DNA of 64,000 nt, taken from a virus. The notes under the pieces were generated by a model. It did not search any database. It had not been told where the DNA came from and worked only from the letters and a program-made list of their open reading frames with translations. How positions within the stretch are numbered: position 1 is the first letter of the stretch; each line of letters starts with the position of its first letter. Where the stretch lies: IMG/VR virus record IMGVR_UViG_3300025141_000016, positions 1 through 64,000 of that record; one strand, written 5' to 3'. This document shows positions 3 through 38,744 of this stretch, in pieces. The position numbers were made by a program, and so were the translations under genes.

Positions 3-125
3 ACAGCCTATCAAGATGGTCGCCCGGAGCATGAGATCGGGCAAGCCGCCCGTGTTTTGCGTAAGGGACTCGTAGAGGCTTCCGCCGATGTTCGTGTGGC
101 TCGCCACAGGGGCCGGACGAGATGA
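3..125 (+). CDS. C-terminal fragment of an upstream protein
   Basis: An open frame enters from the left edge and ends at the TGA that overlaps the ATG of the terminase gene (ATGA), so about 40 C-terminal residues are visible. The tail is basic (RVARHRGRTR) and contains the RVA-type peptide found in other head proteins here. Its position directly before the large terminase would suit a small terminase subunit or another head protein, but too little is present to identify it. Confidence 0.6.
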   Translation, partial: TAYQDGRPEHEIGQAARVLRKGLVEASADVRVARHRGRTR

Positions 126-2050
126 GCCTTGCTGACCTCGCTGCCGCCGTAGGACGGCGCTCTGTTGACGAAGCGGTTGATGAGAGCGTGGACATAATCA
201 CCTTCATCGAGTCCCAATGGGGACTCGGACTACGGTTGTTTCCCGTCCAGCGTGTGATCTTGAAGGCGCATTATGGGATGCCCCTCGATGACAATGCCGA
301 GGGTTTCCCCCTTGATGGGCCTGTTCCTACGGACCACCCATCTTTTCCTACGGCCTCTTTGGATGAAGACGGGTGCTACCTCTACCGTATCGTTGTTGCC
401 GACTTTCGCCGCGATAACCCACAATACATGACGGAGGCTGGGTATCTCCGGCACTTGTTTGACGAGGGGCGCTGCAACATCCGTGAAGTGGTTGCGGGGG
501 AGCAACGACGGGAGATGGTGCTCTCCGTGGGCCGCCGCTCGGGCAAGACTCTGATCACGTCGTGCATCGTGGCCTACGAGAACTACCGGTTGCTTCTGAA
601 AGGCAACCCCCAGCGGTACTACGGCTCGTCACAGTCGAACGTGATCCAGTTGATCTCGGTTGCAACGGACAAGGACCAAGCGGGGCTCCTTTACCAAGAG
701 GCTGCGGGACACTTCACCAAGTGCGATTTCTTCCGACCTTACATGGCGAACGCCACCCAGTCGTTTGCCACGTTTCAAACGCCCTTTGACATTGACCGGT
801 ATGGTTCCTATGCGGACAACCCCAAAGCCCGGTACAGCCTCAAGGTGACCTTCCGGTCTTGCGTGGCCAAGGGGCTCCGAGGTGGGGCCAACATTCTTGT
901 GGCATTGGATGAGGTGGCTCACTTCGGGGAGAAAGGTCAGGCCAGTGCCGATGAGGTCTACCAAGCCGTTGAGCCGAGCACCCGTACTTTCAGTCCCAAA
1001 GACCCCGCCAACCTCACCCGTCCTACCGGGGAGAACGAGGGTCGAATCATCTTGATCTCATCCCCTCTCGGGAAGCAGGGGCTTTTCTACAAGCAGTTCC
1101 GGCTTGGCTTTGGGAACAACAAGGCTGCCGACAACCTGCTGTGTATCCAAGCGCCGACATGGGAGGTCAACCCGACAGTGCCCGCCGAGACGTTTGTTGC
1201 CTCTTACCTCAAAGATCCCAACGTCTTTTTCACGGAATACGGAGCAGAGTTCACGGACAGGACGCGGGGGTGGATTCCAGATGCGGCGGATCTGCTGGCA
1301 TGTGTGGACCCTACTGCTCGCCCCAGGCTGCGAGGGCCGACCCGTGCTCCTCACTTCATGGGGCTCGACGTGGCTCTGGTGGGTGACTACACCGCTGTAG
1401 CCATTGGCCACAACGAGCCATCGGGTGAGGTGGTCCTCGATCACATTGAGCGGATCCGGGCCGGAGAGGGTGACTTCGTAGGCCAGGAACGTCTGGAGTT
1501 TGATGACGTGGCGGATTGGGTCTACGACTTGTCCCGGCGCTACTACATCACGGATGGGATCTTTGACCAGTGGGCCGGGATCCCGATGGAACAGGCGTTG
1601 AGGAAGCGGGGGCTCTCGACGCTGAAATCGGTTCACCACACTCGGCAGTTATCGAGCCAAATGTTCCAGAACTTCAAGGACATGATGTTTGACAAGAGAC
1701 TGGTCCTCTACAACTGGCCTTTGCCGGAGGGGGAGGACCACTGTGCCTACCTCGCGGAACTGCTTGAACTCCAGGCAGACCACATCAGCAAGTACATCGT
1801 GAAGGTCGAGGCCCCCAACATCGAGGGCAAACACGATGACTTTTCGGATGCCCTTGTTCGGATGGTGTGGAGTGCCACGACCAACTCGACCAAGGTGGTG
1901 AGGATGGTGGGGTCCAAACGGTATAGTGGAGAATCTGTTGCGGTTTCTCGTTTTGGTCGGAAGGCCACGGCACTCAAAGGTCGGAGTGGTTCTCATCCTT
2001 CACGCATGATCCCCAAGGGGGGCCGGGGTTCCGGGGGCACTGGTCGGTAG
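122..2050 (+). CDS. terL: Terminase large subunit (TerL), DNA-packaging ATPase/nuclease
   Basis: The 642-residue product is the motor that pumps phage DNA into the prohead through the portal and cuts it. Seen directly: a Walker A loop (GRRSGKT, about residues 137-143), a Walker B strand ending in acidic residues (LVALDE, about 259-264), and a C-terminal RNase H-like nuclease with GLDVALVGDYTA (Asp near 416) and DDFSDAL (Asp near 575). Length and domain order are normal for TerL. Its stop codon TAG is part of a promoter-like motif (2045-2059). The portal gene follows after two small genes, the usual packaging arrangement. Confidence 0.95.
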   Translation: MSLADLAAAVGRRSVDEAVDESVDIITFIESQWGLGLRLFPVQRVILKAHYGMPLDDNAEGFPLDGPVPTDHPSFPTASLDEDGCYLYRIVVADFRRDNPQYMTEAGYLRHLFDEGRCNIREVVAGEQRREMVLSVGRRSGKTLITSCIVAYENYRLLLKGNPQRYYGSSQSNVIQLISVATDKDQAGLLYQEAAGHFTKCDFFRPYMANATQSFATFQTPFDIDRYGSYADNPKARYSLKVTFRSCVAKGLRGGANILVALDEVAHFGEKGQASADEVYQAVEPSTRTFSPKDPANLTRPTGENEGRIILISSPLGKQGLFYKQFRLGFGNNKAADNLLCIQAPTWEVNPTVPAETFVASYLKDPNVFFTEYGAEFTDRTRGWIPDAADLLACVDPTARPRLRGPTRAPHFMGLDVALVGDYTAVAIGHNEPSGEVVLDHIERIRAGEGDFVGQERLEFDDVADWVYDLSRRYYITDGIFDQWAGIPMEQALRKRGLSTLKSVHHTRQLSSQMFQNFKDMMFDKRLVLYNWPLPEGEDHCAYLAELLELQADHISKYIVKVEAPNIEGKHDDFSDALVRMVWSATTNSTKVVRMVGSKRYSGESVAVSRFGRKATALKGRSGSHPSRMIPKGGRGSGGTGR

Positions 2051-2672: not shown

Positions 2673-2996
2673 TTGAGTCGATACCGCTCCAGTAATGCCC
2701 CCACGGATACTGACCGTCAGATCCAGGCTCTCCTCGACCGCGCCTCCCGCTCGGTAGGGGAGGCGATCCGTCTGGCTTCTTCGGCTCCTGTGGCGGCTGG
2801 TCGTGGGAAACGTCGGGTGTCAGGGGACTTGGAGCGGGCGATGGCAGCCCTCCAGACGGTTCGATATATCGGAGCATCCCCCACAGGCCGCGATGAAATG
2901 AGCGAAGTCGAACTCAATCGCCTCCATCGGGAGCGCCTGTCGAATGAAAGGGCCGAGCGTCGTGCAGCGGTGAAGGAGCAGATCGATGTCGGATAA
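2673..2996 (+). CDS. Small basic protein upstream of the portal, unknown function
   Basis: A 107-residue, Arg- and Ala-rich, probably helical protein (many RxxR and ExxxR patterns). The start is TTG at 2673, five bases after GAGG; no better ATG exists. Its 3' end overlaps the portal start by 11 bases, so the two are likely translationally coupled. A head-joining or portal-accessory role would fit the position, but there is no motif to support this. Confidence 0.65.
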   Translation: MSRYRSSNAPTDTDRQIQALLDRASRSVGEAIRLASSAPVAAGRGKRRVSGDLERAMAALQTVRYIGASPTGRDEMSEVELNRLHRERLSNERAERRAAVKEQIDVG

Positions 2997-4707
2997 AACG
3001 ACCTCCGGTGACGGTGTTCCTGTTCGCAAGGTCAAGTCTGGCGACGGGAAGCGGAAAGCGAAGACGGGCAAGCCCCGTCGCGTCACTTCCTCCATGATGA
3101 GAGCCCACAATCGCACAGCCAGCTTCTCGTCAAGCATGGGGAACTCCGAGGCTGTTGAAGGGTTTGGCGGCAACTTCTACTCCCCAGAACTATCTACGGA
3201 CTTCTTGGAGTTGCCGCAGAGTCTCCATGAGCAGTGGAACTACTACCGGTTTTTCTACCGGAATGAGCCTTTCGTTGGTCAGGCGGTGGACCTCCACACG
3301 GAACTGCCGATCAGCAAGGTCAGGATCGGGATGGCTCACGCCAAGAATCGTGAGATCGCGACTGCCGCTACCCGTTTTTGCGAGCGTTGGGCGAAGCGCA
3401 TCCATCTCCTCGACAGGCTGTTGGCTATCACCCATGACCGCAACCTCATCGGAGAGGTCTTCGTCTGGTGTGAGGATGCCAATGGGGAGATGCCCCGAGA
3501 GATCCGTGAAGAGGAGCGCCGGACACTGACCGAAGACGGGGAAGTCAATGAGGAGTGGGTTGAGTACGATGACGCAGATGAACGCGCCGTCAAGTGGCTC
3601 AAAAAGAACTACAAGGGGTGGACGAACATGCGTGTTCTGCCCCCCGAACAAGTCCAGATGCAGAGTTTCAACTTCACTGATGAGCGCATCTTTGAACTGA
3701 TCCCTGACAGCAAGACGAAGGACATTGTTGAGAAAGCCCGGATGGGGGACAAAGAAGCTAAACGCATCGTGGAGTCGATGCCTCCCGAGGTCGTCCAGGC
3801 GGTCACGGCGGGAGAGAACATCCCTCTCAACACTGACCCCATGGCAGGGTCATTCATTCATTACGTCGCCAACCGCAAGTCAGACTACGACCCCCGAGGC
3901 CGTTCCATTTTGGAACGCTGTATGCGTGCTCTGGTCTACCGGGACAAGCTGCGGCAGGCGCAGACCAGCATCGCTTCCCGGCACATGACCCCGATTCGGA
4001 TCGTGTCTGGGGATGACCTTGACATAGCGGATGTGGAAGCCTTGCGGGAGCAGGTAGACAACGCTCTGCAAGACCCCGACTACTCGATCATCGCGAACTT
4101 TGAGGTCAGGTGGGAAGAGATGGGTGCTGATCAGCGTCTACTCGATCTCTCGTCCGAATATGACCTCACTGACCGTCAGTTGTACGCTGGGCTCGGTGTG
4201 ACCGAGGGGCTTCTCTCTGGTGAGAGTGCCTACGCCGGGGACCGGATCAACCTTGAAGTCATCAACACGCGGTACATGCTGCTCCGTGAACAACTCCAAG
4301 ACCTCGTTGAAAACTACTTTTTCAAGCCGATGTGTGCTCGCATGGGTTTCGTGGAGGAGGACGAGGACGGAGAGGAGCGCGTGATTGTTCCCACCTTGTC
4401 GTTCACTCGACTGGCCCTGCGGGACAATCGGGACACGTTCGATGCCCTCTACAATCTCTACACCAAGGGCAGCTTGGACGTGGACACCATCTTGGAACTG
4501 CTCAACCTTGACCCCATCGCGGTCAGGGAGCGCATCGAGCGTGACCTGTTCACCGTCAATGACCCCACGTTCAATGAAGTGCTCCGAGGTGTCTACGGAG
4601 ATGCAGGTCGGGCTATCGCGGAGAACTCCAATGCAGCCGAGAAGATTGCCAAGGTGCTTGGCTTGAAGTTTGAGAAGCCCGCCGAGGAAGAGGGCGGCAG
4701 GTTCTAA
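2986..4707 (+). CDS. Portal protein
   Basis: The 573-residue protein forms the ring through which DNA enters the head and to which the tail attaches. Evidence is overall pattern rather than a single motif: position just after TerL, normal portal length, an N-terminal stretch with repeated aromatic residues (WNYYRFFYRNEP) as in contractile-tail phage portals, a central region with predicted long helices, and a C-terminal helical wing and tail. The first 40 residues are strongly basic and probably disordered. Translation starts inside the end of the preceding small gene. The following gene is separated by a promoter-like motif at 4711. Confidence 0.8.
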   Translation: MSDKTTSGDGVPVRKVKSGDGKRKAKTGKPRRVTSSMMRAHNRTASFSSSMGNSEAVEGFGGNFYSPELSTDFLELPQSLHEQWNYYRFFYRNEPFVGQAVDLHTELPISKVRIGMAHAKNREIATAATRFCERWAKRIHLLDRLLAITHDRNLIGEVFVWCEDANGEMPREIREEERRTLTEDGEVNEEWVEYDDADERAVKWLKKNYKGWTNMRVLPPEQVQMQSFNFTDERIFELIPDSKTKDIVEKARMGDKEAKRIVESMPPEVVQAVTAGENIPLNTDPMAGSFIHYVANRKSDYDPRGRSILERCMRALVYRDKLRQAQTSIASRHMTPIRIVSGDDLDIADVEALREQVDNALQDPDYSIIANFEVRWEEMGADQRLLDLSSEYDLTDRQLYAGLGVTEGLLSGESAYAGDRINLEVINTRYMLLREQLQDLVENYFFKPMCARMGFVEEDEDGEERVIVPTLSFTRLALRDNRDTFDALYNLYTKGSLDVDTILELLNLDPIAVRERIERDLFTVNDPTFNEVLRGVYGDAGRAIAENSNAAEKIAKVLGLKFEKPAEEEGGRF

Positions 4708-4710
4708 CCT

Positions 4711-4725
4711 CGGTAGGAGTCCTAT
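4711..4725 (+). promoter_or_regulatory. Putative late promoter motif CGGTAG-N5-CTAT
   Basis: Exact motif, four bases after the portal stop. It would give an unusually long leader (about 90 bases) containing the hexamer repeat at 4755 before the ATG at 4818. Confidence 0.5.
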
Positions 4726-4754
4726 TCCCGTGGTTGGGTGTGCCAAGACCAAAA

Positions 4755-4796
4755 AGGTCGAGGTCGAGGTCGAGGTCGAGGTCGAGGTCGAGGTCG
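4755..4796 (+). repeat. Tandem hexamer repeat (AGGTCG)x7 in a leader
   Basis: Seven perfect copies of AGGTCG lie between the promoter-like motif and the ATG at 4818. The frame through the repeat is open into the gene (Arg-Ser repeats) from a TTG at 4734, so changes in copy number would not shift the frame. Confidence 0.9.
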
Positions 4797-4817
4797 AGTA
4801 AGCAAGGAGATCCCACC

Positions 4818-5834: not shown

Positions 5835-6096
5835 CTCCCCACCCCTCGGGCTTCGGCTCCAGCCCGTACATGAGATTGGTACACACCTCGCCAGTGCCCT
5901 CTTTGGTCCCAGAGATGGTGGCCGAGGAAGATGAGCCCGGTGGGCGTGGTCCACACGCCGAACCAGACCAGAGGAGATGGGTAGGAGGGAGGAGTCATAG
6001 CACAAGCCCGGTATAGAGAGAGTAGAGAGAGTAGGGGGTGTCGGTAGTCCTGCTATACCCCTCCTCCGGGTAGACACAGATCGGAGTGCCCTACCG
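5835..6096. other. Intergenic region of 262 bp
   Basis: Holds a short hairpin (CGGGCTTCGGCTCCAGCCCG region, 5856-5875), a purine-rich direct repeat (GAGAGAGTA, about 6016-6032) and an exact promoter-like motif at 6042-6056. A 55-codon antisense frame (5831-5998) lacks a ribosome binding site. Confidence 0.6.
6042..6056 (+). promoter_or_regulatory. Putative late promoter motif CGGTAG-N5-CTAT
   Basis: Exact motif followed by ACCC, 40 bases upstream of the ATG at 6097. Confidence 0.55.
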
Positions 6097-7664: not shown

Positions 7665-9014
7665 GTGGCTATAACATTCCCTACAACAGTCCAGTACAAG
7701 CGAAGACAACGACCCGCTCTGGAGGTTGGCACGCTTGGGCGCAGTCGCGTTTATCTTGTGCAGATGCCCCCTTCCCTGCTGCGGCTTGTCTACAAGGAGG
7801 GCAGGCGCATAGAGGGCTTGGGTGGGTCCAGCTATGACAAGGTGAAGTGGGATTCCGGCCCCAACGAGGGCAAAAAGGTAGCCATCAGGACATTGGAGGC
7901 TTGGGCTCAAAACGCGGAATCGGGTGGCCACGCGGGAAGCCAGGATGCCGCTCGCTACAGGGACCAGATTACGAACATTACAGGGAAGACCGCTATGAGC
8001 AACCCCGACGATTTTTGGACCAAACTGGCTACCGGACACACAAACACCGTGCTCGCTCACGGGATGGACCGCCATCTGGGTGCCCCCCTGGGTGACTCTT
8101 TTGAGGGAGTCCGTGTGTTGAGTGACGTGGGCCGTGCTGCTCATGCTCTTTCGCTTCCTGTGGCCGCTGGGGTCAAGGTGTCCTTTGCTGGAACCCTGGG
8201 TGCTCTCATGGCCCACGATGACTCGCCTGCCGATGGTGCCATCGGAGAGGTGGTCACGGTCAAGTCAGCTACGGGGGAGATCACCCACCATGATGGCAAG
8301 GTCTTCGTGAAGTGGGACGACGGTAAGTTCCGCCCCATCCACTCCGAGCACCTGCGTCTGGCTGGGTCCACGAGCAAGACTGCTTCCAAAGTCGTGAAGA
8401 TTCGCAAGGACGACAAGGGCAACGGCCTTTGGATTGAGGCGCGGGGGAAGCTGGAGGGACCGCTCACAGCGGCACAGGTGCTATCAAAGGTTGATAGCTA
8501 CCTTGATGACTCCGACGTGGTTGTCATGGGGCGTGATCATTCGCTGGGTCGGAACCAGACAGCGGTTCCCTACAGCAAAGCCCTCTATGTGATCCGCAAC
8601 AAGCGTGGGGATGTGATTGATGAGGGCTACTCCCTCAAAAACCTGTGGAATAAGTGGTTCGACCGGTTCCTTGGATGGAGGATGGCTTCCCAGGACAAGG
8701 AAGTCGCTGAACTGTTGAAGGCCAAGCCTGATAATGAGTTCCTACAGTCCGTGGAGGAGCAACTGGATGACGACCGCTCCCTGTCGGACAAGCAAGAGGA
8801 AGTTCTCGATGAGATTCAGGATGAGGTCAAGTCTGACAAGGCAGCTTCGTTCCGCGTGGGCACCCTTGGTGACCTCACGAACTTTTTGAAGGTTGCCGAG
8901 GGCAAGCTGATTCACACCAGTACCGCAGACCTGTGGTCCTATACGAAGGATGCGGATGGGGCTTTCCTCGTCTCACGCCTGTTTGACGATATGGGCGAGC
9001 CCTTGAAGGGGTAG
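7665..9014 (+). CDS. Head-region protein of unknown function
   Basis: A GTG at 7665 is preferred because TAGGAG (overlapping the previous stop) lies five bases upstream; a TTG one codon earlier is too close. The 449-residue product is unrecognised. The N-terminal half is mixed; around residues 180-230 an SH3-like stretch is suggested (GEVVTVKSATGEITHHDGKV); the C-terminal third is acidic and helical. It carries SKTASK, RMASQ and KAASF, variants of the peptide shared by head proteins here, near the borders of these segments. Likely a virion-internal or prohead protein (inference). Confidence 0.7.
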   Translation: MAITFPTTVQYKRRQRPALEVGTLGRSRVYLVQMPPSLLRLVYKEGRRIEGLGGSSYDKVKWDSGPNEGKKVAIRTLEAWAQNAESGGHAGSQDAARYRDQITNITGKTAMSNPDDFWTKLATGHTNTVLAHGMDRHLGAPLGDSFEGVRVLSDVGRAAHALSLPVAAGVKVSFAGTLGALMAHDDSPADGAIGEVVTVKSATGEITHHDGKVFVKWDDGKFRPIHSEHLRLAGSTSKTASKVVKIRKDDKGNGLWIEARGKLEGPLTAAQVLSKVDSYLDDSDVVVMGRDHSLGRNQTAVPYSKALYVIRNKRGDVIDEGYSLKNLWNKWFDRFLGWRMASQDKEVAELLKAKPDNEFLQSVEEQLDDDRSLSDKQEEVLDEIQDEVKSDKAASFRVGTLGDLTNFLKVAEGKLIHTSTADLWSYTKDADGAFLVSRLFDDMGEPLKG

Positions 9015-9024
9015 GACGGCTGCT

Positions 9025-9039
9025 CGGTAGTCGGCCTAT
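9025..9039 (+). promoter_or_regulatory. Putative late promoter motif CGGTAG-N5-CTAT
   Basis: Exact motif, 28 bases upstream of the ATG at 9068. Confidence 0.55.
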
Positions 9040-9067
9040 CGCATCGCCCTCGATAGGAGAAACGTCC

Positions 9068-9748
9068 ATGAGTGCAGATCCAACCCGCGTTGCTTCGGCC
9101 TTCGCCAAGAAAGCGGCCATGAGCCGTGTCGCGGGGGAGGTCCGTTTCATCAAGGACCGGTCTGGCGATAAGTCAGAGTGGGGTTGGGGTCCGACTGGAC
9201 CCAGCGAGCGCCACATCCAAGAAGATTTTGTGTTCAATGCACGGGAACTCAAACCGCTGGCCAAGACCCTACGATCCGCTTTGATGGCCCTCGGCCATGC
9301 CACGTCAGCCCACAACCGGCTGGTGAAGGTCAAGTCGCGCAACGTGAGCCCGGATGGGAGTCTCGGCGGCAAGGGCTACATCCAGACGATCCCAGACATG
9401 CGGCGGCAGTTGATGAACTGCGTAGAGGCTTTGTCGGCCTTCACCGATACCATCTATGACGAGATGAACGCTCCCCACTGGAACCCCAGCGAGGACACTC
9501 TCAATGCTCGTGACCGCGATGAGGTCAAGGAGATCATTGAAGATGCGGAGGAGATCAAAGAAGATCCCGAAGGCTGGGCCGAGGAACAGGAAGAGGACAT
9601 GGATGATGAGGATGAGGACGAGGACGACCTCGACCCATCAGGAACCAAGATGGCCCGCAGGACGAAGGTAGCGGCTTCCCGTCGTGTTTCCGAAGGCACA
9701 GTATCTTCTCACCGGGTTCTCGCCCGGTACACTGGGAGGCTCCCATGA
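9068..9748 (+). CDS. Head-region protein with acidic C-terminal stretch
   Basis: The 226-residue protein starts after GATAGGAGAAACGTCC. It opens with PTRVASAFAKKAAMSRVAG and, after a helical middle (LKPLAKTLRSALMAL), runs into a stretch made almost only of Glu and Asp (about residues 160-190). It then ends with a basic tail containing TKVAASRR. The two [KR]VA[AS] peptides thus bracket the body of the protein. The acidic stretch resembles those of scaffold-like core proteins. The ATG of the next gene overlaps its end. Confidence 0.7.
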   Translation: MSADPTRVASAFAKKAAMSRVAGEVRFIKDRSGDKSEWGWGPTGPSERHIQEDFVFNARELKPLAKTLRSALMALGHATSAHNRLVKVKSRNVSPDGSLGGKGYIQTIPDMRRQLMNCVEALSAFTDTIYDEMNAPHWNPSEDTLNARDRDEVKEIIEDAEEIKEDPEGWAEEQEEDMDDEDEDEDDLDPSGTKMARRTKVAASRRVSEGTVSSHRVLARYTGRLP

Positions 9749-11562: not shown

Positions 11563-14280
11563 ATGCGGGGATCCCCGTCCCAAGTAGCGCGTCGATGGAT
11601 GCAGGCTCGTGTCGAGCCTCTGAACCCCGAGCAGGCCAAGAAGTTCCGTAAGGAAGTGCTCATGCTTGCGAAGGCGGCGGAACGTGCGTCTTCTTACGCT
11701 GATGTGGAGCAGATTGTCCCTGCGGTGGCGAAGTGGAGACAGGCGTTTGACTATTACAACGCCGCTATCCGCAAAGAGTTGGAGGCTCGTGTCCGAGAGG
11801 GTGAGAATCGGAACATCCCTGTCCCCGAGGGTGCGACCCGACCGGATGCAGGGTGGGCAAAATACTACATCGAAAATGCCAAGCCGGTCTGGGATCTCTC
11901 TTACGAGGTAGGTTCGTTGCCGAGCGTCCCCAAAGTCACGAATCGACACGGTGGCGCTTTTGAGGAGCCCGAGGTGGCTCGTGCTCGGATGGTTGAGTTC
12001 TGGCTGGGCCGGGGGGATTCTCAACAGGAGGCAGAGCGGAAAGTAGAGGATTACCTGTTGGGGTCGCCCTCGTGGACCCGAGAGGAAGCCGAACAGAAAG
12101 CGGTGGATCGGTGGAAGGGGGAATCCCGTAAGTGGGCCAACCGTGTGCGTCGGAAGGCCAGGAAGACTTGGGCTTTCTACGCGGATCTGGCCGCATGGGC
12201 ACAACGGTCTATGGGAGGGGCGCGGGAGATAGCGATTGCGGTCCCCGACGAGGAAGTCGTCTCCCTGGAAGGGTTCCGTGTCATCTTCCGGGGCTTTGCG
12301 GAGTCCCCCTACCAAGACAAACTCCCCGCTGTGAAGCACGGGTTGAAGATGTACCGGCAGTTGGCCCAGAAGCGAGCCCCCATCCTGCTGAAACGGCAGA
12401 CACCGATCTTCATCGAGTGGACGTTTGAGCCGACCACCTCATCCAGTGCGGGAGCCTACTACCTGGGGAGTAAGATATTCGTGACCCCATGGAAGATCGG
12501 CAAGGACATTGGTGACTTCGTGAAGACGATGGCTCACGAGATGGGCCACCACATTTTCAGGACTTACCTGTCGGGGGCTGCAAAAAAGGCGTGGACTGCG
12601 TTCATTCGGGGTGACTACAAGGAACTCGACCTCCGCGAAGCACTTGCCATCATGCAACGGGTGGGGGCAAGAACCATCGTTGGTGATGAGTTGGCCGAGG
12701 AAGACCCCATCCTCTACCTCCAGATGAACACCCTGATGCACGACTCCAGATTCAAGTACATGGACCTTTTCAGTGTTGAGGACATTCAAGAATACCTCAA
12801 TGCAGGGAAAGACCCTATGGTCGCCGTTCCCATCAATCCCATCACAGGGTACGCGGGGAAAAACCCCGAGGAGGCGTTCTGTGAGGCTTTGGGCCTGTTA
12901 GTGGCCTATGGGAAAAAGGCGGTCCTGGGTCCGGTTCGGATGATGCTCCGGGGTGTTCTGCCGGAAGTCCGCATAGCGTCCGAGAAGACCATGACCGAGC
13001 GGGTAGCCCAGCGTAAGCACGCTGAAATGACGGGTGAGGCTTCCGTCGCCTTGATGAAATGGCTCTCCAAGGTCACCCAACGGATAGGGGTGGCGCGACA
13101 CGTCTACGTCGTCGGGGGAGCCGTCAGGAACTTTCTGATCGACAAGCCCATCAAGGACATTGACATGGTGGTGGACTCCCTCTCCTTACGAGGGAACCGG
13201 GACGCTGCTTGGGTGGCAAAGGAGATTGCCCGCGCCATCCCTACCAGCACGGACATTGTGACTGACGCTCTGATGGTGTCCAAGGTGTTCATCCAGGGGG
13301 AGTGGGACTTGGATGGCCACCAGATGAAGGATGAGGTCATCGAGATCGTCAACGCCCGAGCCGAGATTTACGAGCAGGACGAGGAGGGCAACTACCTGGG
13401 ACACAAGCCCGTCCGAGTTGACCCCACGACCTTGGAAATCGACGCAACTCGACGGGAGTTCACTTTCAACACCCTCATGTGGTCGTTGCTCTCGTTGGCC
13501 GATGGCCCGGAAAAGGCTGAAATCATTGACCTTACAGGGTGTGGAGTGCGGGATTTGGAGGCTCGCGAGATGCGTTGCCCCCAGGATCCCGACAAGACCT
13601 TCACGGAAGACCCCACACGGATCATCCGCACCATCAAGTTTGCGTTCAAGTACGGCTTCAAGCTGCCCCCGGACGTGAAGGCAGCGGCTACCCGGCAGGC
13701 TCGGGGACTGAAGCGAATCCCCTCAAAGGCGTGGGGAGCCCTTCGCGACATTGTGCTGGAGAACCCCCAGTACAAAAAGGCTCTGGGAGTCATGGATGAC
13801 CTCGGGGTCATTGACGTGCTCGCTGACATGGTGCGCGACGACCAGCAGTTCGCCACCACCCTGCTCAACTACTCCCAGAAGCGGGGAGTGGCGTTCATGT
13901 TTGACCTCATGGACCTTGGGATTCCTGTGGGTGCGCCCATGGGATTCATGGACTCTGCCCAACAACGCCAGTTCCGAGCGTTGTCTGTGGACATGGACCG
14001 AGATGAGGCCCTCCACTACCTTGAAGCCATCAAGAACCCAGGGGTGGCGTACAAAGATAAGAAGTTCGTGCCTTCCCTGGCCAGGGAGTACGGGGTGGAC
14101 CCGAAGAAGATGCGGGATTTCATGCCCGTGGTCACCCAGATTGGCAGGGATCTTCTTCTCGATGACCCCGAACTTCTGCACGATGCCCCTCGGCTGAAGC
14201 GAATGGTGAGGCGAGATTTGGGGTCCGCAAACGTGAGGGTGGCCTCGGAGTGGTTGCCGACTACTCGGGGAGGGTTTTGA
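11563..14280 (+). CDS. Fusion: zinc metallopeptidase-like domain plus CCA-adding/poly(A)-polymerase-type nucleotidyltransferase
   Basis: The 905-residue protein joins two enzyme modules. First, after a helical N-terminus, a zinc metallopeptidase signature: MAHEMGHH (His325, Glu326, His329), with acidic residues in NPEEAFCEA (436-441) that could provide the third ligand. Second, from about residue 505, a class II nucleotidyltransferase head as in tRNA CCA-adding enzymes: YVVGGAVRN (Gly518-Gly519, Arg522) followed by KDIDMVV (Asp532, Asp534). RREFTFN and EDPTRIIRTIKFAFKYGF follow, matching the conserved motifs of the family. The modules are separated by VRIASEK ... ERVAQRK, and another VRVASEW stands at the C-terminus. 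Substrates are unknown; the combination is unusual. Confidence 0.85.
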   Translation: MRGSPSQVARRWMQARVEPLNPEQAKKFRKEVLMLAKAAERASSYADVEQIVPAVAKWRQAFDYYNAAIRKELEARVREGENRNIPVPEGATRPDAGWAKYYIENAKPVWDLSYEVGSLPSVPKVTNRHGGAFEEPEVARARMVEFWLGRGDSQQEAERKVEDYLLGSPSWTREEAEQKAVDRWKGESRKWANRVRRKARKTWAFYADLAAWAQRSMGGAREIAIAVPDEEVVSLEGFRVIFRGFAESPYQDKLPAVKHGLKMYRQLAQKRAPILLKRQTPIFIEWTFEPTTSSSAGAYYLGSKIFVTPWKIGKDIGDFVKTMAHEMGHHIFRTYLSGAAKKAWTAFIRGDYKELDLREALAIMQRVGARTIVGDELAEEDPILYLQMNTLMHDSRFKYMDLFSVEDIQEYLNAGKDPMVAVPINPITGYAGKNPEEAFCEALGLLVAYGKKAVLGPVRMMLRGVLPEVRIASEKTMTERVAQRKHAEMTGEASVALMKWLSKVTQRIGVARHVYVVGGAVRNFLIDKPIKDIDMVVDSLSLRGNRDAAWVAKEIARAIPTSTDIVTDALMVSKVFIQGEWDLDGHQMKDEVIEIVNARAEIYEQDEEGNYLGHKPVRVDPTTLEIDATRREFTFNTLMWSLLSLADGPEKAEIIDLTGCGVRDLEAREMRCPQDPDKTFTEDPTRIIRTIKFAFKYGFKLPPDVKAAATRQARGLKRIPSKAWGALRDIVLENPQYKKALGVMDDLGVIDVLADMVRDDQQFATTLLNYSQKRGVAFMFDLMDLGIPVGAPMGFMDSAQQRQFRALSVDMDRDEALHYLEAIKNPGVAYKDKKFVPSLAREYGVDPKKMRDFMPVVTQIGRDLLLDDPELLHDAPRLKRMVRRDLGSANVRVASEWLPTTRGGF

Positions 14281-14815: not shown

Positions 14816-17800
14816 ATGCGCCCGAAGGTGGCCAAATCCTACAACCGCATAGCGATGTACGACTTCGACGGAACCTTGTTCCGAAGTTGGGAGGCTACAC
14901 CTGAATGGTGGGCCGGGTCATCCCTCGATACTGGTCCCTACTCGTTTTTCGTGCGCCACGAGTCTCTGGGTGAGCCCTGTGTTCCTGATTCCCCGGAATC
15001 CGATTACTGGATCACCAAGACGGTGGCAGCAGCCAAGAAGGACTCCTCCGACCGAAATGTCTTTGTGGTCGTAGTGACTGGGAGGGTTCGGACACACAAA
15101 CGGCGAGTATTGGAACTTCTCAAAAGCAAAGGGATCAATCCCGAGGCTTCCTACTTCAATCCAGGCATGTCGGCTGCCAAGTTCAAGGTGGCGGTCCTCC
15201 GCAACTTGTTGGCGGGCCACCGAATGGTCAGTGCGGTGGATGTGTGGGAGAACGAGAATCAGACGTACTACGAGAACGCCCTACGCCAAGCGGCAAAGAA
15301 ACTGGACCGTGAGATCACGGTGACGATCCACAGCATCCATGTGCCGCCCAAGCCTCTCGTGTGTGGTCCCCGCGATTTTGGGTTGTCGAAAGATGCCTCC
15401 GTCGGTCGGGTGGTGGCCAAGTATCAGGGGAAGAAAGAAGTCCCCACGGCTGATGGGAAGGGTACGTCTACGGTCTACGAGTACGGCCCCCGTCAAGTGG
15501 CCAAACGCCACAAGGAAAAGGCCAAGCGGATCGAATCCCTCCGGCAGAAGATGGCGGAACTGCGGCAACAGGCTCGGGGTGACCTCACGAGCAAAGACCC
15601 TCAAACGCGCCTCACGGCGTTGGCAGTCTGTCTCATGGATGAGACTTACGAGCGCGTGGGCAACGAGAAGTCTGCCGAGGAAGGTCACCATGGGGTCACC
15701 AACTGGACGGCAGGTCATGTCTCTCTCGGGGACAAGAGTGCCACCGTCAAGTACACCGGGAAGTCTGGGGTCAAGCAAGAGAAGACGGTCACCAACGCTC
15801 GGGTGTTGAAGGCCCTGCGGGAAGCCATGAAAGGCAAGGGTAAGGGCGACAAGATCCTGTGCGATGGGGATGAGTGCGACATTCTCGCCAAGGATGTGAA
15901 CGCCTACCTCAAACCATTCGGGGTCACCGCGAAGGACATTCGGGGGCTCCATGCCAACGAGGAGATGCGTCGTCGTCTTCAAGAGGTACGAAAGGGTGGT
16001 CCCGATCTCCCGGTCGCCCGGAAAGAAAAGGACAAGATCCTGAAGGCCGAGTTCCAGCAAGCCTTGAACGATGCTGCCAAAGCTGTTGGCCACGAAGCCA
16101 GCACCCTACGGAGGCAGTACCTTGTACCGACCATGGAGGAGACATTTATCCACGACGGCACCGTGATTGACCAGTTGGCCAAGAAAGCTGGGGGCAGCCG
16201 CATCCTCTACTACATCGGTAAGAACAAGGCACAGCCCAAGCCCAAGCGGGTCAACCACTGGAAGGACCGGGGGCAGCCCGAACCGGCTTGGGTGCGTCCG
16301 TGGCTCGATGCTCCGGTTCAAAATGCCGTGTTTCTCACCACCAATCCCTTCGGTGTGGCAACGAACCACGGGGTGGTGGGGCATGTCTATGCCTATGACG
16401 TTCCCCAGTGGGTGCTCAAAGAGGCCAAAGGGCTCCACCGCTATGATTGGGCTACCGAGGTCATCATCCCCGATGTGCTGTGGAAGCACGTCAAGTTTCG
16501 GGGCAAGTCGATGGACCGGCAGGAGTTCGACCAGATGATCAGGGAGGGCCAGAACGAGCGGTCCTTTGCCCAGTGGAATCGGAACATGGGATTGCGAGAG
16601 AAGCGCAAGCCAGAGTTGGTAGGACAGCCTGTTTGGGTCACCGCCACCAAGTCGGATGCGGAGAAAGAGGAGGAAGAAGACCAGAGGTTGATCCGGCAGA
16701 GCCCCAAGAAGAAGCCCCCTCGTCGGGATCTGGAACGGGGTCGTGTTGAGGACACACACGAGACGGATGCCGATGAGGACCAAGACCGGAAGGACCGCTC
16801 CCGCAACTTCAAGGACGCGGCTGCTTGGGTCGCCCTCCGGTATGCCGCTGGGGCTGCCGCAGCCGAGGCCGATGACGAAGGTAGTTCAGGCGGTGGGGTC
16901 AGCGGTAAGTTCCTCATGTTCTTGGAGGAAAAGGGTGGCGATCAGGTCACCAACCCGGACACCGGGAACAAGGTCAAACTCAAAAGTCTCAAAGGCCCGA
17001 AGGGGAAGGAGTTACAGAAGCGGGAGTTCCAGAAGTGGCTGGACTCCGAGAGCGACGGAGATGCCGGTGCCGAGCCCTCGGGACCGAAGCCGAAACCGAA
17101 GCCGAAACCGAAGCCGACAGGCCCCTCTGCCGATGCGAAACATGCAGAGTCCCTGGATAAAGTAGTGGGTGCCCAACAGAAGCGTGAAGATTTGGTCGCG
17201 GAGGGAGAGCCCTTTGATGTGGAGGCCATCAAGGCAACCATACGTGAGGAGTTCTCCGCGATCCCTGGGGTAGATCCCACCACGATCAAAAACACCCTGG
17301 GGTCTATGACGTTGGTCCCCCCCAAGGGATCCCACGACACTCCCGAGATGCTACTGGAGGCAGCGGTGGCGAGCCTCACCAAAGCCAACGGTGGGGCGGT
17401 CAAGGCTTTCGGCAAGAAGACCAAGATTGTCGAGAAGAAAGCATTGGAACAGGTCACGGAACTTGCGGGGGAAGCCGCCAAGGGGTTGAGCAAGTCCCTG
17501 ATGCCACATGACTTGCTCGCCGTCGCGGCTCACATGGAAGCGGCTAAAGACGAAGCGGTGGCAGAGATTCTGGATGGACGTGCCCGTAAGGATGCTCGGT
17601 CCAAGGCGCAGTTCGCGGATCGGGTGCTGGAAAGGATCGATGGTGACAACCCGCCCTCTCCCGAGGAGATCGCGGAAGCCCTGGTGGCGAAGCGGGCAGT
17701 CGGGGTGCTTGATGATCCCACGATGCTTTACCCCCACAAGCCCCTGACGAGTTTGAGCACCGAACCGTTGTCGTTCGATAACCCTGGGGCCGAGGCGGCC

Positions 17801-18583
17801 TACCGGGAGAAAATGACCGAGGTGGCTGTTGATGCCATGGACGCTTACCGAACCTTCACCCCGGAGGACCGTGAGACGCATCGCAAGGGGCTGGAAAAGC
17901 ACATCAAGAAAATGACGGAGGGAGGGGACACCGAGTCGGAACAGTACGCCCAAGCCATCTCCCAGATGCGGGGCATGGCGCTTGCGTCAGCCTTGGAAGA
18001 CGGGGACAAGGCCAAGGGGGTCAATCCCACGTTCCAAGCGTTGCTGGTAGGGGCTGACAATGCGGGACGAGTGGAGGAGTTTGCCAGGGTCAACCTTTCC
18101 GGTGCTGCGGAAGGGGATAGTAGTGCCCAGCAAGTATTCCGTGACGTGATGGAAGATACCTCCCATGAAGACATGGCGAAGATGCTTCCAGACGATCATC
18201 CGGCCCAATCTGCCTTGAAGTTGTTGACCGGCTGCCCGTCTGGCGCAGACCCCAACAGTCAGGGGTGCCGGGAACTGGCGAACCTCCCCCAAGATTCCAT
18301 CGACATGCTGAACACGATGGTCAACGATGCGGTGATGGGAGAGGTGCTGTTCACGGATCAAGCCCTGGTATCGGCAGACCCTAACGCCTCGGTCGGGTCC
18401 ATCAAGCAGAAGAAGAAGCAGACCAAGCAGACGGGCAAGGGGAAGTCTTTTGCGGACATGATGGCGGCTTTTCTTGCAAGCCTCAAAGCAGGTAAGAGTG
18501 CCGCGCAGTTGCCCACGGGGATATACGACTTTGATCCTTGGAGGGCATCTATTTCCGGGCAAAGGGATGAGTTCAGCCGGTAG
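14816..18583 (+). CDS. Polyprotein: HAD phosphatase (SAK-like) plus type IB topoisomerase plus long C-terminal region
   Basis: A 1255-residue protein. Residues 9-180 are a HAD phosphatase of the Swiss-army-knife RNA-repair type: YDFDGTLF (Asp16, Asp18), then EWW and VVVVTGR. Residues about 225-450 carry the full type IB topoisomerase active site: Arg280 (YERVGN), Lys316 (TGKSG), Arg376 (KDIRGL), His426 (VGHEAS) and Tyr435 (RRQYLVP). Residues about 460-600 form a separate compact domain, unassigned. Then come a charged linker (HETDADEDQDRKDR), an AAAWVALRYAAG peptide, a (PK)n stretch near residue 760 and a helical, charged C-terminal half. RPKVAKSY and GRVVAKY at domain borders resemble the head-region motif. 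The first two assignments are well supported; processing is inferred. Confidence 0.88.
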   Translation: MRPKVAKSYNRIAMYDFDGTLFRSWEATPEWWAGSSLDTGPYSFFVRHESLGEPCVPDSPESDYWITKTVAAAKKDSSDRNVFVVVVTGRVRTHKRRVLELLKSKGINPEASYFNPGMSAAKFKVAVLRNLLAGHRMVSAVDVWENENQTYYENALRQAAKKLDREITVTIHSIHVPPKPLVCGPRDFGLSKDASVGRVVAKYQGKKEVPTADGKGTSTVYEYGPRQVAKRHKEKAKRIESLRQKMAELRQQARGDLTSKDPQTRLTALAVCLMDETYERVGNEKSAEEGHHGVTNWTAGHVSLGDKSATVKYTGKSGVKQEKTVTNARVLKALREAMKGKGKGDKILCDGDECDILAKDVNAYLKPFGVTAKDIRGLHANEEMRRRLQEVRKGGPDLPVARKEKDKILKAEFQQALNDAAKAVGHEASTLRRQYLVPTMEETFIHDGTVIDQLAKKAGGSRILYYIGKNKAQPKPKRVNHWKDRGQPEPAWVRPWLDAPVQNAVFLTTNPFGVATNHGVVGHVYAYDVPQWVLKEAKGLHRYDWATEVIIPDVLWKHVKFRGKSMDRQEFDQMIREGQNERSFAQWNRNMGLREKRKPELVGQPVWVTATKSDAEKEEEEDQRLIRQSPKKKPPRRDLERGRVEDTHETDADEDQDRKDRSRNFKDAAAWVALRYAAGAAAAEADDEGSSGGGVSGKFLMFLEEKGGDQVTNPDTGNKVKLKSLKGPKGKELQKREFQKWLDSESDGDAGAEPSGPKPKPKPKPKPTGPSADAKHAESLDKVVGAQQKREDLVAEGEPFDVEAIKATIREEFSAIPGVDPTTIKNTLGSMTLVPPKGSHDTPEMLLEAAVASLTKANGGAVKAFGKKTKIVEKKALEQVTELAGEAAKGLSKSLMPHDLLAVAAHMEAAKDEAVAEILDGRARKDARSKAQFADRVLERIDGDNPPSPEEIAEALVAKRAVGVLDDPTMLYPHKPLTSLSTEPLSFDNPGAEAAYREKMTEVAVDAMDAYRTFTPEDRETHRKGLEKHIKKMTEGGDTESEQYAQAISQMRGMALASALEDGDKAKGVNPTFQALLVGADNAGRVEEFARVNLSGAAEGDSSAQQVFRDVMEDTSHEDMAKMLPDDHPAQSALKLLTGCPSGADPNSQGCRELANLPQDSIDMLNTMVNDAVMGEVLFTDQALVSADPNASVGSIKQKKKQTKQTGKGKSFADMMAAFLASLKAGKSAAQLPTGIYDFDPWRASISGQRDEFSR

Positions 18584-19075: not shown

Positions 19076-19609
19076 TTGCGCCGTAACGCCGTAAATAATG
19101 TCAACTGGCAGCAGCGAGCCCTCGCCTTTCAGGTTGGGGACGTTGTGGGGCCGTTTGGCCTATTCGATGCACAGTCGGGCCGCGTCACAGCGGTTTGGCC
19201 TGCCATCGGTATGGTTGATGTGGAGATGGCCTCGGGCAACAAGCGGTATCCAGTCGAAGACCTCCAGCGATTTGACAGTGAGGGTGATTCAGAACCCCCC
19301 TACACTGACTCTGCCCCAGGTGGGCAGCCCACAGTACAGGTGCCCGGTGGCCCCGTTGACAAGTCGGCGGCTCGGGTGGCATATGCCTATCGCAAGGCAA
19401 TCTACTGGGCTGACAAGGACCGACAGTACAGGGCCAACCGAGATGAAATGGCCTCGGGCCAGCCTGGATGCCCTCGTTGTGAAGAACAGCCCCATCTCCG
19501 ACGGGCAGTCTACAAGCGACGTGATGGCAGCAGTGAACGTCTCCTGGGATGCCCAGGTTGCATGTTCCTCATCAAGAGATCCGACATTATGAACCTTGGC
19601 GGCGAGTAA
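19076..19609 (+). CDS. Small protein with SH3-like N-terminus and zinc-ribbon-like C-terminus
   Basis: Starts at TTG 19076, eight bases after GAGG; no suitable ATG exists. The N-terminal half (VGDVVGPFGLF ... GRVTAVWP) has the look of a small beta barrel. A linker with ARVAYAYRKA follows, and the C-terminal part holds two CxxC pairs (CPRCEEQ and CPGCMF) spaced as in a zinc ribbon. Its TAA overlaps the ATG of the protease gene. Unknown role, possibly structural or nucleic-acid binding. Confidence 0.65.
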   Translation: MRRNAVNNVNWQQRALAFQVGDVVGPFGLFDAQSGRVTAVWPAIGMVDVEMASGNKRYPVEDLQRFDSEGDSEPPYTDSAPGGQPTVQVPGGPVDKSAARVAYAYRKAIYWADKDRQYRANRDEMASGQPGCPRCEEQPHLRRAVYKRRDGSSERLLGCPGCMFLIKRSDIMNLGGE

Positions 19610-21045
19610 TGGCGTTCTTGAAGCAGGCGAAGGCAGTTGTCGTCCATCCTCGCATTAGCGGGCGTGTGTGGGGAGGTATCCGTAAGGCTGCTTCTGGTCC
19701 CACGCGGGATCTGACAGCCCAGGCTCGGGAGATTCTGGGTGAGGGCCTTCATTCGGACGACTATCTGGTCACCCACTGCACCATCGTTGCCTCGGTGGAT
19801 GTGGATGCGGTGCCTGGAGTTCGCCTGGGCAACGTCAAGATCGGTAGCGCCACGGTCAACAGGAAGTGGGACGACTACTACATCAAGCCCCAATGCTCCC
19901 AGTTCGTAAACAACAACGGTGACGCTTGGTCCCGGTCGGTGTTGCGGATGGCGTACCCCACGTTTATCGGGGGGCACAACTTCCAAGAGCACGTCCAGAT
20001 TGAGGAACAGAGCAAGGGTCGGATCATCGACGCTGTTGCTCGTGACATAGGGGATTCCCTCTATGTGGACATTCTGGTCGCCACCAGCCGCAAGCACGCC
20101 GCTCTGGTCCAAGACATTCAGTCTGGAAAGATGGCTACCCTGTCGATGGGTTGCACCACTGACTTCACCGTCTGTACCAAGTGCGGCCACTATGCCGTCG
20201 ATGAGACGCAGTTGTGTGAGCACGTTCGCTACGCCAAACTCAATACCTTCATGGATGAGGCTGGGCAGAAGCGGGTCATCGCGGAGTTGTGTGGACACCA
20301 GACCTACGACGAGAACCCTGATGCGCCCGGTGGGGTCAGATTCATTGAAGCCTCATGGGTTGCGGTGCCAGCGTTTGCTGGGGCAGTGATGCGGAACATC
20401 CTCGCTCCTGGCGAGGTGGTTGAAGCCGAAGTCCGTAAGGTCATGGCTTCACCTCCTACCGAGTGGTCTTCACAAGCTGTGGTCAAAGCCGCCAACCTTC
20501 GTGGTGTCCAAGCCTTTGAGTTTGGGGACGAGGAGGGTGAAGGAGAGGGTGAAGGAGGGGGAGAGCCCGCTGCCGATGACGCTGCTCCTTTCCAAGCGGC
20601 TGAAGACACCCTCTACAATGCTTTGAAAAGTCGGGTGGTTGAGCGTCTACAGCGAGAGATCGCACAAGAGAACGTGGAAGACGAGATGGGGTCCGAGGCC
20701 CCAATGGACCCCAACGACAACATCATCAAGGAAGGAGCAGCGCAGAACTATGCCGCATCCCTCCAGATGATGACCCGTGTCGCATCCAGCCCTATTGCCC
20801 TCATTGATGGGGTCGCCACGATCAACTCTTCCTACGGGATTCGGGTAGGTCGTGACGTATATCGAACCGCTTTGCGGGTAGGGGCTCATAGCCAATACCC
20901 TTCCCTTACCCATTTCCGACGAGCGTGCCGCAAGGTTGCTGGTCGCGATTTGTCCTCTGCCGAGATCCGGGTTGTTGTCCGGCTTGGCTCGCTGCTCTCA
21001 CGGTGGGAGCAACACAACAACCCTCCAACCACCCAATCTGAATAG
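19609..21045 (+). CDS. Prohead core protein / head maturation protease
   Basis: The ATG at 19609 overlaps the previous stop (TAATG); an extension to 19549 is unlikely. The 478-residue protein resembles the protease-type prohead core proteins of large phages. It has GGHNFQEHVQ (His123) followed by a strand with YVDILVA, then LSMGC (Ser179), plus cysteines in CTKCGHY and LCEHVRY and an FIEASWVAVPAF segment. His and Ser are candidate catalytic residues of the assemblin-like fold. The C-terminal part has an acidic Gly-Glu stretch and the peptides TRVASSP and RKVAGRD, possibly its own cleavage sites. Position just upstream of the scaffold candidate and capsid genes supports the role. Confidence 0.75.
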   Translation: MAFLKQAKAVVVHPRISGRVWGGIRKAASGPTRDLTAQAREILGEGLHSDDYLVTHCTIVASVDVDAVPGVRLGNVKIGSATVNRKWDDYYIKPQCSQFVNNNGDAWSRSVLRMAYPTFIGGHNFQEHVQIEEQSKGRIIDAVARDIGDSLYVDILVATSRKHAALVQDIQSGKMATLSMGCTTDFTVCTKCGHYAVDETQLCEHVRYAKLNTFMDEAGQKRVIAELCGHQTYDENPDAPGGVRFIEASWVAVPAFAGAVMRNILAPGEVVEAEVRKVMASPPTEWSSQAVVKAANLRGVQAFEFGDEEGEGEGEGGGEPAADDAAPFQAAEDTLYNALKSRVVERLQREIAQENVEDEMGSEAPMDPNDNIIKEGAAQNYAASLQMMTRVASSPIALIDGVATINSSYGIRVGRDVYRTALRVGAHSQYPSLTHFRRACRKVAGRDLSSAEIRVVVRLGSLLSRWEQHNNPPTTQSE

Positions 21046-23323: not shown

Positions 23324-23353
23324 TCAACCACCTTCCCACATTTGGAGACAATC

Positions 23354-24226
23354 ATGTCCGTATCGAACTCTGTGAAGGCCAAGCTGATCAGCGACTACAT
23401 TAGTACCGCCGCTGGTCGGGCCAAGTTGGCCGCCTCAATGACTCAACCCCTCCGGCTTCGCCGGGACTACCATAGTGTAGGTAGAAAGACCTTTTTGGTC
23501 GAGCAGTTGCCAGATGGCGCTCTGCCTATCTACGATAAAGACCCCGATGTTACGGCATTCGTGGTCGGTGAGGAAGGTGAGAACATCATCGCCGTCACCA
23601 AGCCCCGTCGTGTCATCTTCCCTCTCTTTGAGATCGCCTCCAACCCGGAGATCCCACTGACGCAGGTGAAGGAACGTCGCTTCGATCTCATCGAGCGGTC
23701 GCAGGACCTCGCTCGTGCCCAGATCCAGGCTGCTGAAGACGAGCGTGTCTTCGCCACCCTCGATGCTGTCGCTGCCAACGGCTTCGACTCGGTTGGTGCG
23801 GTCAACGCCGACACCGCCGTCGTCGCACCGATCAGTGGTGACGTGCTCGCGGATGCTTTCTCGCTCATCGAACGCCACGATCTGCGTGTTGCTCGCGTCT
23901 TTATGAACGCTCGCGACTACGCCGATCTGCGGAAGTTTGGCCGGGACATTCTCGACATCGAAACCCAGCGCGACCTGTTGAAGACTGGTCTGATGGCAAC
24001 CCTTTGGGGAGCCCAGATCATCGTCAGCCGCCTCGTGCCGGTCGGCACCGTGTACGTCTGCTGTGAGCCCGAGATGTTCGGTCGGATGCCTGTCCGTACC
24101 GAGTTGACGGTCCTCTCGGCTGACGATCCCAAGGCGCGGACCATCGGGTTCAGTTGCTTTGAGAACCTGGGCATCGGTTGTTTCAACCCGCGTGGCCTCG
24201 CTCGTCTGACTGTCACCCGTCCGTAG
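23354..24226 (+). CDS. Major capsid protein, HK97-like fold
   Basis: The ATG at 23354 follows TTGGAGACAATC. The 290-residue protein has the features of a compact HK97-type capsid protein: a helical N-terminal arm, a long spine-helix region (RFDLIERSQDLARAQIQAAEDERVF), a peripheral domain with FMNARDYADLRKFGRDI and a central beta region (LWGAQIIVSRLVPVGTVYV). Near residue 30 the sequence AKLAASMTQ resembles the [KR]-x-A-[AS] peptide of other head proteins and may mark removal of an N-terminal propeptide (inference). Position after protease and scaffold and before a strong terminator supports the assignment. Confidence 0.82.
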   Translation: MSVSNSVKAKLISDYISTAAGRAKLAASMTQPLRLRRDYHSVGRKTFLVEQLPDGALPIYDKDPDVTAFVVGEEGENIIAVTKPRRVIFPLFEIASNPEIPLTQVKERRFDLIERSQDLARAQIQAAEDERVFATLDAVAANGFDSVGAVNADTAVVAPISGDVLADAFSLIERHDLRVARVFMNARDYADLRKFGRDILDIETQRDLLKTGLMATLWGAQIIVSRLVPVGTVYVCCEPEMFGRMPVRTELTVLSADDPKARTIGFSCFENLGIGCFNPRGLARLTVTRP

Positions 24227-24299: not shown

Positions 24300-25043
24300 T
24301 TACCGTAGAGAGGGCGGGAGCCGTAGGTCTTCGGTGGCCATCAGGAGTTCGCGGGCAGGCCCGTAGGGCTCTGTGAACCCGAACGTCTCGATGAGGGGGG
24401 CATCCGCCTTCGCAACCCATCCCAGCATTTCCTCGTCGTACAGCTTGGCTGCATCGGGGATGTGGTGTTGGGGTCGGTGGGAAGCGCAGTTCTGGGATTG
24501 GATGGCTTCAATCATCTCGCGGGGCCTGTTGAGTAAGAGGGCCATTCCCTCTTTCAGCCTGGAGGAGTCGAGGAACATGGCTGGGCGGGGAGGTCTGCCG
24601 TAAACGTACCGGAAGGTCCAACTACACAACCCAAGCCCTGACCCCAAGTAGTTGTTGAGGGCACCCTCGTAGTGGTCCTGCATCACATCCCAGACCACAG
24701 TGAAGTTGTCGGGCATCTCTTCCACGTCGAGGGGGTGGGTGAGCCCGAACAACACGTCGCGGAACTCGTTGCTCCCGTTGCCAAACTTGATCAGGTCGTC
24801 CTTCATCCCCCATAGACAGTGCTGATAGAACGACAGATACCATGACCATGGGTCGCGGACGGTTCCGAACAACATCCGATTCTGCAACGCGCTGACCGGG
24901 ATCTCACTCGGGGGTCCGTGTTTCTTCGGCCCTTGGACACAGATGCCGCCCACATCAGGGATGCGGACCATAATCCTCCCGACGGTGGTCCCTCCTGTCT
25001 TTGGCATGTGCCAGTAGGCGAGGTTGTCGGTGACGTAAATCAT
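24300..25043 (-). CDS. Sulfotransferase-like protein
   Basis: The 247-residue antisense protein has both PAPS-binding signatures of sulfotransferases. The 5'-phosphosulfate loop is HMPKTGGTT (residues 12-20), and the 3'-phosphate motif is GTVRDPWSWYLSFY, with Arg63 and Ser71 at the expected R-x7-S spacing. Such enzymes move sulfate from PAPS to a hydroxyl or amine on sugars or proteins. The target is unknown; host surface glycans or a virion glycan are possibilities. It is a single gene facing against the head operon, with its own ribosome binding site (AAGAGAACC). This suggests an independently acquired, separately controlled accessory function. Fold assignment is confident, substrate is not. 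Confidence 0.85.
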   Translation of the reverse strand: MIYVTDNLAYWHMPKTGGTTVGRIMVRIPDVGGICVQGPKKHGPPSEIPVSALQNRMLFGTVRDPWSWYLSFYQHCLWGMKDDLIKFGNGSNEFRDVLFGLTHPLDVEEMPDNFTVVWDVMQDHYEGALNNYLGSGLGLCSWTFRYVYGRPPRPAMFLDSSRLKEGMALLLNRPREMIEAIQSQNCASHRPQHHIPDAAKLYDEEMLGWVAKADAPLIETFGFTEPYGPARELLMATEDLRLPPSLR

Positions 25044-38660: not shown

Positions 38661-38694
38661 GAAATCTCCTGATGGCGGGGGGTGCTTACCCTCC

Positions 38695-38744
38695 ATACGG
38701 AGATACCGGGGCGAGTTGAACCCCCCTACGGCAAATCAGTTGAA
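38695..38744 (-). repeat. 50-bp tRNA-3'-like element, copy 2
   Basis: Minus strand: TTCAACT, 12 bases, GGGGG-TTCAACT-CGCCC, 7 bases, TCTCCGTAT, ending 34 bases before the ART-like gene. Same 50-bp layout as copies 1 and 3. Confidence 0.6.

Follow-up and report, generated by a model that had tools for sequence, protein, structure and literature searches.

Several described systems bear on the locus analysed here. Polyvalent proteins are large multi-domain proteins that are encoded among late virion genes and have been proposed to be packaged and injected, and the sections of their description considered here name a mixed set of enzymes, i.e. zincin, ART, GNAT, 2H, PRTase and LPD (Iyer et al. 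2017, PMC5512222). Pfam describes its family ART-PolyVal as 'ADP-ribosyltransferase in polyvalent proteins'. In the working model of head-protein processing in SPN3US and phiKZ, proteins are targeted to the prohead by their propeptides and matured by a protease, and the phage ejects its internal head proteins (PMC10052503). Both topoisomerase IB (TopIB) and HAD phosphatases of the Swiss-Army-Knife (SAK) family have been reported in jumbo phages, the latter in RNA repair, in the passages of Iyer et al. 2021 (PMC7824862) drawn on here.

We analysed a window of 64,000 nucleotides, the first 64 kb of a 297,104-bp huge-phage record that is possibly incomplete; the ORFs are mechanical predictions and the relatives are metagenomic contigs. 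Features lie on the plus strand unless stated otherwise. The ORF at 14816..18583 (+) starts with ATG, runs uninterrupted for 1255 aa with zero internal stops, and encodes a modular (polyvalent) protein with the order HAD - tag - TopIB - X - PPR block/tag - tail. The location among capsid genes given in the sequence-only reading holds, since the ORF lies between the portal and the protease and capsid genes. Upstream are the terminase large subunit (122..2050, PHROG E 4e-24), the portal protein (2986..4707, PHROG E 3e-34) and an ORF at 11563..14280, and downstream are the head maturation protease (19549..21045, PHROG 18299, E 1.3e-12) and the major head protein (23342..24226, PHROG 2522, E 9e-55). 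The ORF at 11563..14280 has tag-like ends and carries a HExxH metallopeptidase-like region, recognized by eye, and a poly(A) polymerase / tRNA nucleotidyltransferase head (PF01743, E 6.8e-14; the PHROG match is to tRNA nucleotidyltransferase). We also observed in the window a sulfotransferase-like gene on the opposite strand right after the major capsid gene (24300-25043, minus strand; PF03567, E 0.002, below cut-off), a small ART/PARP-like ORF with weak Pfam matches to DUF3990 and PARP (38154-38696, minus strand), and an ORF (4734-5834) in which the peptide GLKTAST is repeated, with RTRTAKYNTKLRATD coming after it in two cases.

The earlier proposal that a HAD phosphatase and a TopIB share one reading frame is borne out by per-domain HMM searches, in which HAD_SAK_1 (PF10307) matches aa 30-179 with E 2.6e-7 and Topoisom_I (PF01028) matches aa 230-430 with E 2.9e-24, both above the curated cut-offs. 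Pfam, motif residues and the structural model together place the HAD domain at aa 10-178 (14843..15349). Its two aspartates, Asp16 and Asp18, had been singled out before, and they are conserved together with T88, R90, K124 and E/D145 in 19/19 HAD rows of our alignment. The domain has the DxDGT motif, the T of motif II, the K of motif III and the acidic residue of motif IV that characterize the SAK family (D16, D18, T88, K124 and E145 here).

The TopIB core spans aa 204-452 (15425..16171) according to Pfam, a profile search against PDB, the model, Foldseek and conservation. Its five catalytic residues are present as claimed and are invariant in 24/24 complete TopIB rows, i.e. Arg280 (15653-15655), Lys316 (15761-15763), Arg376 (15941-15943), His426 (16091-16093) and Tyr435 (16118-16120). 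In the profile alignments they fall on the R-K-R-H-Y positions of the variola topoisomerase, and only the first three correspond in human Top1. The AlphaFold2 model of aa 1-455 has a mean pLDDT of 89.7 and a pTM of 0.59, and shows two domains of high confidence with a low-confidence linker between them (aa 194-200, pLDDT below 50). Its best PDB matches by Foldseek are variola topoisomerase-DNA complexes (E 2e-12), and the HAD domains of Lem4 and Pnkp are weaker matches of the HAD half. An active-site geometry like that of the known enzymes is thus probable from the fold and alignment matches. The structure prediction suggested in the earlier reading turned out well for the two enzymes, and poorly for the unassigned domain X, which has too few relatives and an unreliable model (pLDDT 46). 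The word "complete" that was applied to the topoisomerase went too far: the variola and Deinococcus enzymes are matched only from about residue 70 onwards, the N-terminal DNA-clamp lobe is absent as it is in the relatives examined, and the stand-alone TopIBs L030-L032 likewise start at the core. We therefore class this part of the protein as the catalytic core of a TopIB and not as a full-length enzyme. The Pfam search of the phage record did not detect a type II topoisomerase (PF00521), which is a weak argument because the record may be incomplete.

Domain X (aa 458-605; 16187..16630) has no Pfam match, and the alignment and the loci show it as a mobile unit, being N-terminal to TopIB in L001, L008 and L011. 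In L002 this position is occupied by another stretch, judged ART-like by eye alone; an ART-like identity of domain X was likewise a by-eye impression and was dropped. A conserved linker block follows (aa 610-670; 16643..16825), with the pattern ATKxxxEKEDExxxLVKPxPKxKPPRxDL, an acidic stretch and NFK. This PPR block was found in 17 TopIB polyproteins, usually right before a tag, and is missing from the stand-alone TopIBs examined. The charged tail (aa 690-1255; 16883..18580) is conserved only in the closest relatives L001, L002 and L008 among those tested (phmmer E 1e-53 to 1e-63).

We found TopIB domains of this kind in about 25 distinct viral contigs of huge phages, mostly in the head module, with about 15-20 loci near TerL, portal, head protease or capsid genes. 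The search for HAD relatives gave 92 stretches, of which 80 were kept, and duplicates were counted once (L003 = L019/L020/L084/L085; L011 = L012; L015 = L016; L014 = L053, apparently the same phage). The HAD domain lies directly before TopIB in one ORF in four phages, namely the window, L003 (LR745208, 485 kb), L057 and L069. One domain is inserted between the two in L033 (2H) and L034 (a metallopeptidase-like stretch), the order is reversed in L014, and in L055, L064 and L073 HAD is a separate ORF, with a tag or a tag-like stretch at its end, right ahead of the TopIB ORF. The arrangement had been thought not to be standard for phages, which was overstated, as several huge phages share the fusion, and reversed, split and inserted versions of it occur as well. 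Its novelty is also reduced by the fact that multi-enzyme proteins among phage head genes form a described class, the polyvalent proteins (PMC5512222).

The partners of TopIB vary. The TopIBs nearest to that of the window (75-78% identity) include two fused to PAP2 instead of HAD, and other phages have PAP2, 2H, LPD1 or a second TopIB in place of HAD. On the TopIB tree the HAD linkage needs four changes, at least two of them forced by well-supported branches, indicating that partners come and go. These data bear on the idea that the two domains form one DNA-repair machine, in which HAD would be a 3'-phosphatase cleaning the ends left by abortive TopIB cleavage. That HAD sits directly beside TopIB in at least four phages and adjoins it in others, and that Pnkp is among the weaker fold matches, would suit such a machine; yet a linked HAD is missing from 24 of the 34 TopIB rows of the tree, HAD can also be found by itself, together with 2H or a nucleotidyltransferase, or after TopIB in reversed order, and the linker between the two domains is of low confidence and tagged. 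We consider a joint repair machine quite unlikely.

The partners of HAD point to RNA. One relative (L035) has HAD, a tRNA nucleotidyltransferase and 2H within one ORF, while the window has its nucleotidyltransferase in the metallopeptidase-like ORF (11563-14280); the fusion in L035 suggests an RNA-repair kit. HAD probably serves as a phosphatase in RNA end repair, judging from this linkage and from what is described for the SAK family (PMC7824862). The phage's own genome encodes two HAD_SAK domains and one TopIB. The second SAK-HAD (L007, 234068-237538, at about 235 kb) precedes a weak 2H / tRNA_lig_CPD match, has the border peptide at its C-terminus, and adjoins an ORF that looks GNAT-like by eye and also bears the peptide; this region is possibly a second virion-cargo cluster distant from the head genes. 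The 2H family PF13563 had no Pfam match in the own genome, and the tRNA_lig_CPD match beside the second HAD is its sole trace. An RNA ligase partner was also considered and rejected, since the weak PF09414 match at 114.8 kb falls in an ORF that by eye resembles an NAD-dependent DNA ligase.

Some relatives have unusual features of their own. The 2257-aa protein of L013 (6407-13177) contains two TopIB domains along with a stretch that by eye resembles a phosphoribosyltransferase, and tags lie between these parts. The head maturation protease gene of L001 (14439-17234) is apparently broken by an intein-like insert, which starts with CFLPGTMVSLADG and ends with VHN, and inserts likewise divide the terminase and portal matches of L028. 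In L003, two ORFs that look TnpB/OrfB-like by eye (4540-5841 and 8009-9292) lie next to the terminase and portal.

A short peptide, P/A-S-x-R-V-A-x-R-Y/F/W-L, borders the units of the protein. Tag 1, RVVAKY (aa 198-203; 15407..15424; matrix score 16.6), lies between HAD and TopIB and overlaps the low-confidence linker of the model, and tag 2, WVALRY (aa 671-676; 16826..16843; matrix score 12.6), lies ahead of the tail, at a position where relatives carry tags as well. Border peptides had been noticed in the sequence alone, and we found them strongly enriched over expectation. The pattern [RKQ][VIL]Ax[RK][YFW] occurs 41 times in the TopIB loci versus 3.05 expected. A matrix trained on the TopIB-locus sites of other phages and then applied to the HAD contigs, a test set including a few phages also in the training loci, gave 56 sites versus 2.0 expected, and 31 of these lie no more than 45 aa from an ORF end versus 13.9 under uniform placement. 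A loose regular expression, with 10 occurrences versus 3.1 expected, was too weak, and the trained matrix was used instead. We scanned the window and three 20-kb stretches of the own genome with the matrix, and found 6 tags versus 0.47 expected in the head-region cargo ORFs, 5 versus 0.2 at 24-34 kb, 7 versus 0.2 at 228-248 kb, and two at ORF starts at 106-107 kb. The same scan gave 0 tags in the tail module, 0 at 150-170 kb, and none in the major head protein or the portal. One of the tagged proteins (ORF 3505-7248 of L116, own genome 228001-248000, i.e. 231-235 kb) has 1247 aa, an ART-PolyVal match (E 9.5e-12), and tags at aa 295 and 580.

We considered what such a peptide could be. It is not simply a general capsid maturation cleavage site, because the capsid protein and the portal have no tag, and we ruled that candidate out. 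It could be a mere linker or a recombination footprint of domain shuffling, as it sits at domain borders, where shuffling happens. The codons of the tag copies vary, however, being 35% identical versus 28% expected, and this synonymous variation indicates that selection acts on the peptide and not on the DNA; it rules out a DNA-level recombination site, and the peptide is also found at the free ORF termini of single-domain proteins. The linker or footprint explanation seems to us highly improbable. We infer that the border peptide is a virion-targeting or processing tag.

The head-module location could also be explained without injection. TopIB could be a head-assembly enzyme that stays in the producing cell and, with the terminase and portal, clears supercoils or tangles during packaging, its fused domains being recruited there. 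TopIB indeed comes directly after TerL and ahead of the portal in L015, L029, L030, L031 and L032, and in L030-L032 it is an untagged stand-alone ORF. These untagged enzymes fit an assembly role equally well and count against the reading that we favour, as does the missing long tail of L003. On the other hand, a role in packaging is not evident for HAD, PAP2, 2H, the tRNA nucleotidyltransferase or ART-PolyVal, and tagged proteins also occur at 106-107 kb and 228-248 kb, a long way from the packaging genes. We regard a role restricted to head assembly as rather unlikely.

The explanation that we prefer, and hold to be somewhat better than evenly probable, is that this huge tailed phage encodes here a polyvalent protein whose tag-bounded enzyme units are loaded or released through the peptide and injected with the DNA. 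The border peptide would dock or target each unit into the prohead, as the T4 capsid-targeting sequence does, and/or be cut during head maturation, freeing the units, which would then be injected together with the DNA. In the cell TopIB would relax the large incoming genome, and HAD would remove terminal phosphates in the end repair of nucleic acids, most likely RNA, alongside the co-located tRNA nucleotidyltransferase; the two would be co-packaged and not parts of one catalytic machine. The analysis establishes the ORF, its domains and catalytic residues and its place in the head module, and shows that relatives swap partners and that the peptide is enriched where units meet and where ORFs end. 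Packaging and injection of the enzyme units are likely, and the units may be cleaved apart and are predicted to be enzymatically active. The sequence-only interpretation is partly supported: the head-region location kept by relatives and the enriched border peptide speak indirectly for enzymes that travel in the virion, which may act on entering nucleic acid. A broader and more tentative proposal, to which we give somewhat less than an even chance, is that R-V-A-x-R-Y/F/W serves a widespread group of huge phages as a transferable signal for loading proteins into virions and possibly for cleaving them, so that enzymes gaining it at an end or border, TopIB and RNA-repair enzymes among them, are packaged and injected as interchangeable kits. 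Should the peptide indeed act in the loading or release of virion cargo, there would be a sequence rule predicting head-carried proteins among the many unknowns of huge phages, and an explanation for the swapping of injected enzymes by these phages. TopIB and HAD would join the enzyme types that phages may inject. The poxvirus TopIB, which is packaged in virions, offers a functional parallel.

In comparison with known systems, the TopIB has the same catalytic core fold and R-K-R-H-Y site as the poxvirus and bacterial enzymes (variola 2h7f and 3igc; Deinococcus 2f4q), but lacks their N-terminal lobe and forms part of a polyprotein; in size it comes closest to the vaccinia catalytic fragment 1a41. 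The border peptide has no known likeness to the T4 capsid-targeting sequence, and the comparison concerns the way of working only, as between an analogue and not a homologue. The T4 signal is an N-terminal peptide removed by the prohead protease, while the tags here are also internal and C-terminal. The peptide is similarly an analogue and not a homologue of the signals in giant-phage head-protein processing, since the SPN3US propeptides are N-terminal except for the protease's own (PMC10052503) and the tags here lie between domains and at C-termini. We found no such border peptide in the open-licence literature searched, nor in the portion of PMC5512222 covered. The jumbo-phage SAK-HAD 'tends to occur as a standalone domain' (PMC7824862), whereas here it is fused to TopIB; no such fusion was found in the covered part of that paper or in the open-licence literature searched. 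The build is that of the polyvalent proteins, with unrelated enzymes in one head-region polypeptide. HAD, TopIB, X and the tail are joined here and PAP2, 2H and LPD1 occur in relatives, and the genes lie near late virion genes, from portal to protease and major capsid protein here and among head genes in about 15-20 relatives. The 1255-aa ORF itself has none of the domains of the described class. These occur elsewhere, as LPD1 in L017 and L023, 2H in L033 and L035, and ART-PolyVal in the tagged own-genome ORF, with zincin, GNAT and PRTase in relatives recognized by eye only. A text search of PMC5512222 did not find HAD or PAP2 as domains and gave one word-start match to 'topoisomerase', and the pol-beta NTase is listed there only for conjugative elements. 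From its domain content and location the 1255-aa protein is best filed under the polyvalent proteins, and HAD and TopIB are additions to what we found described for the class in PMC5512222.
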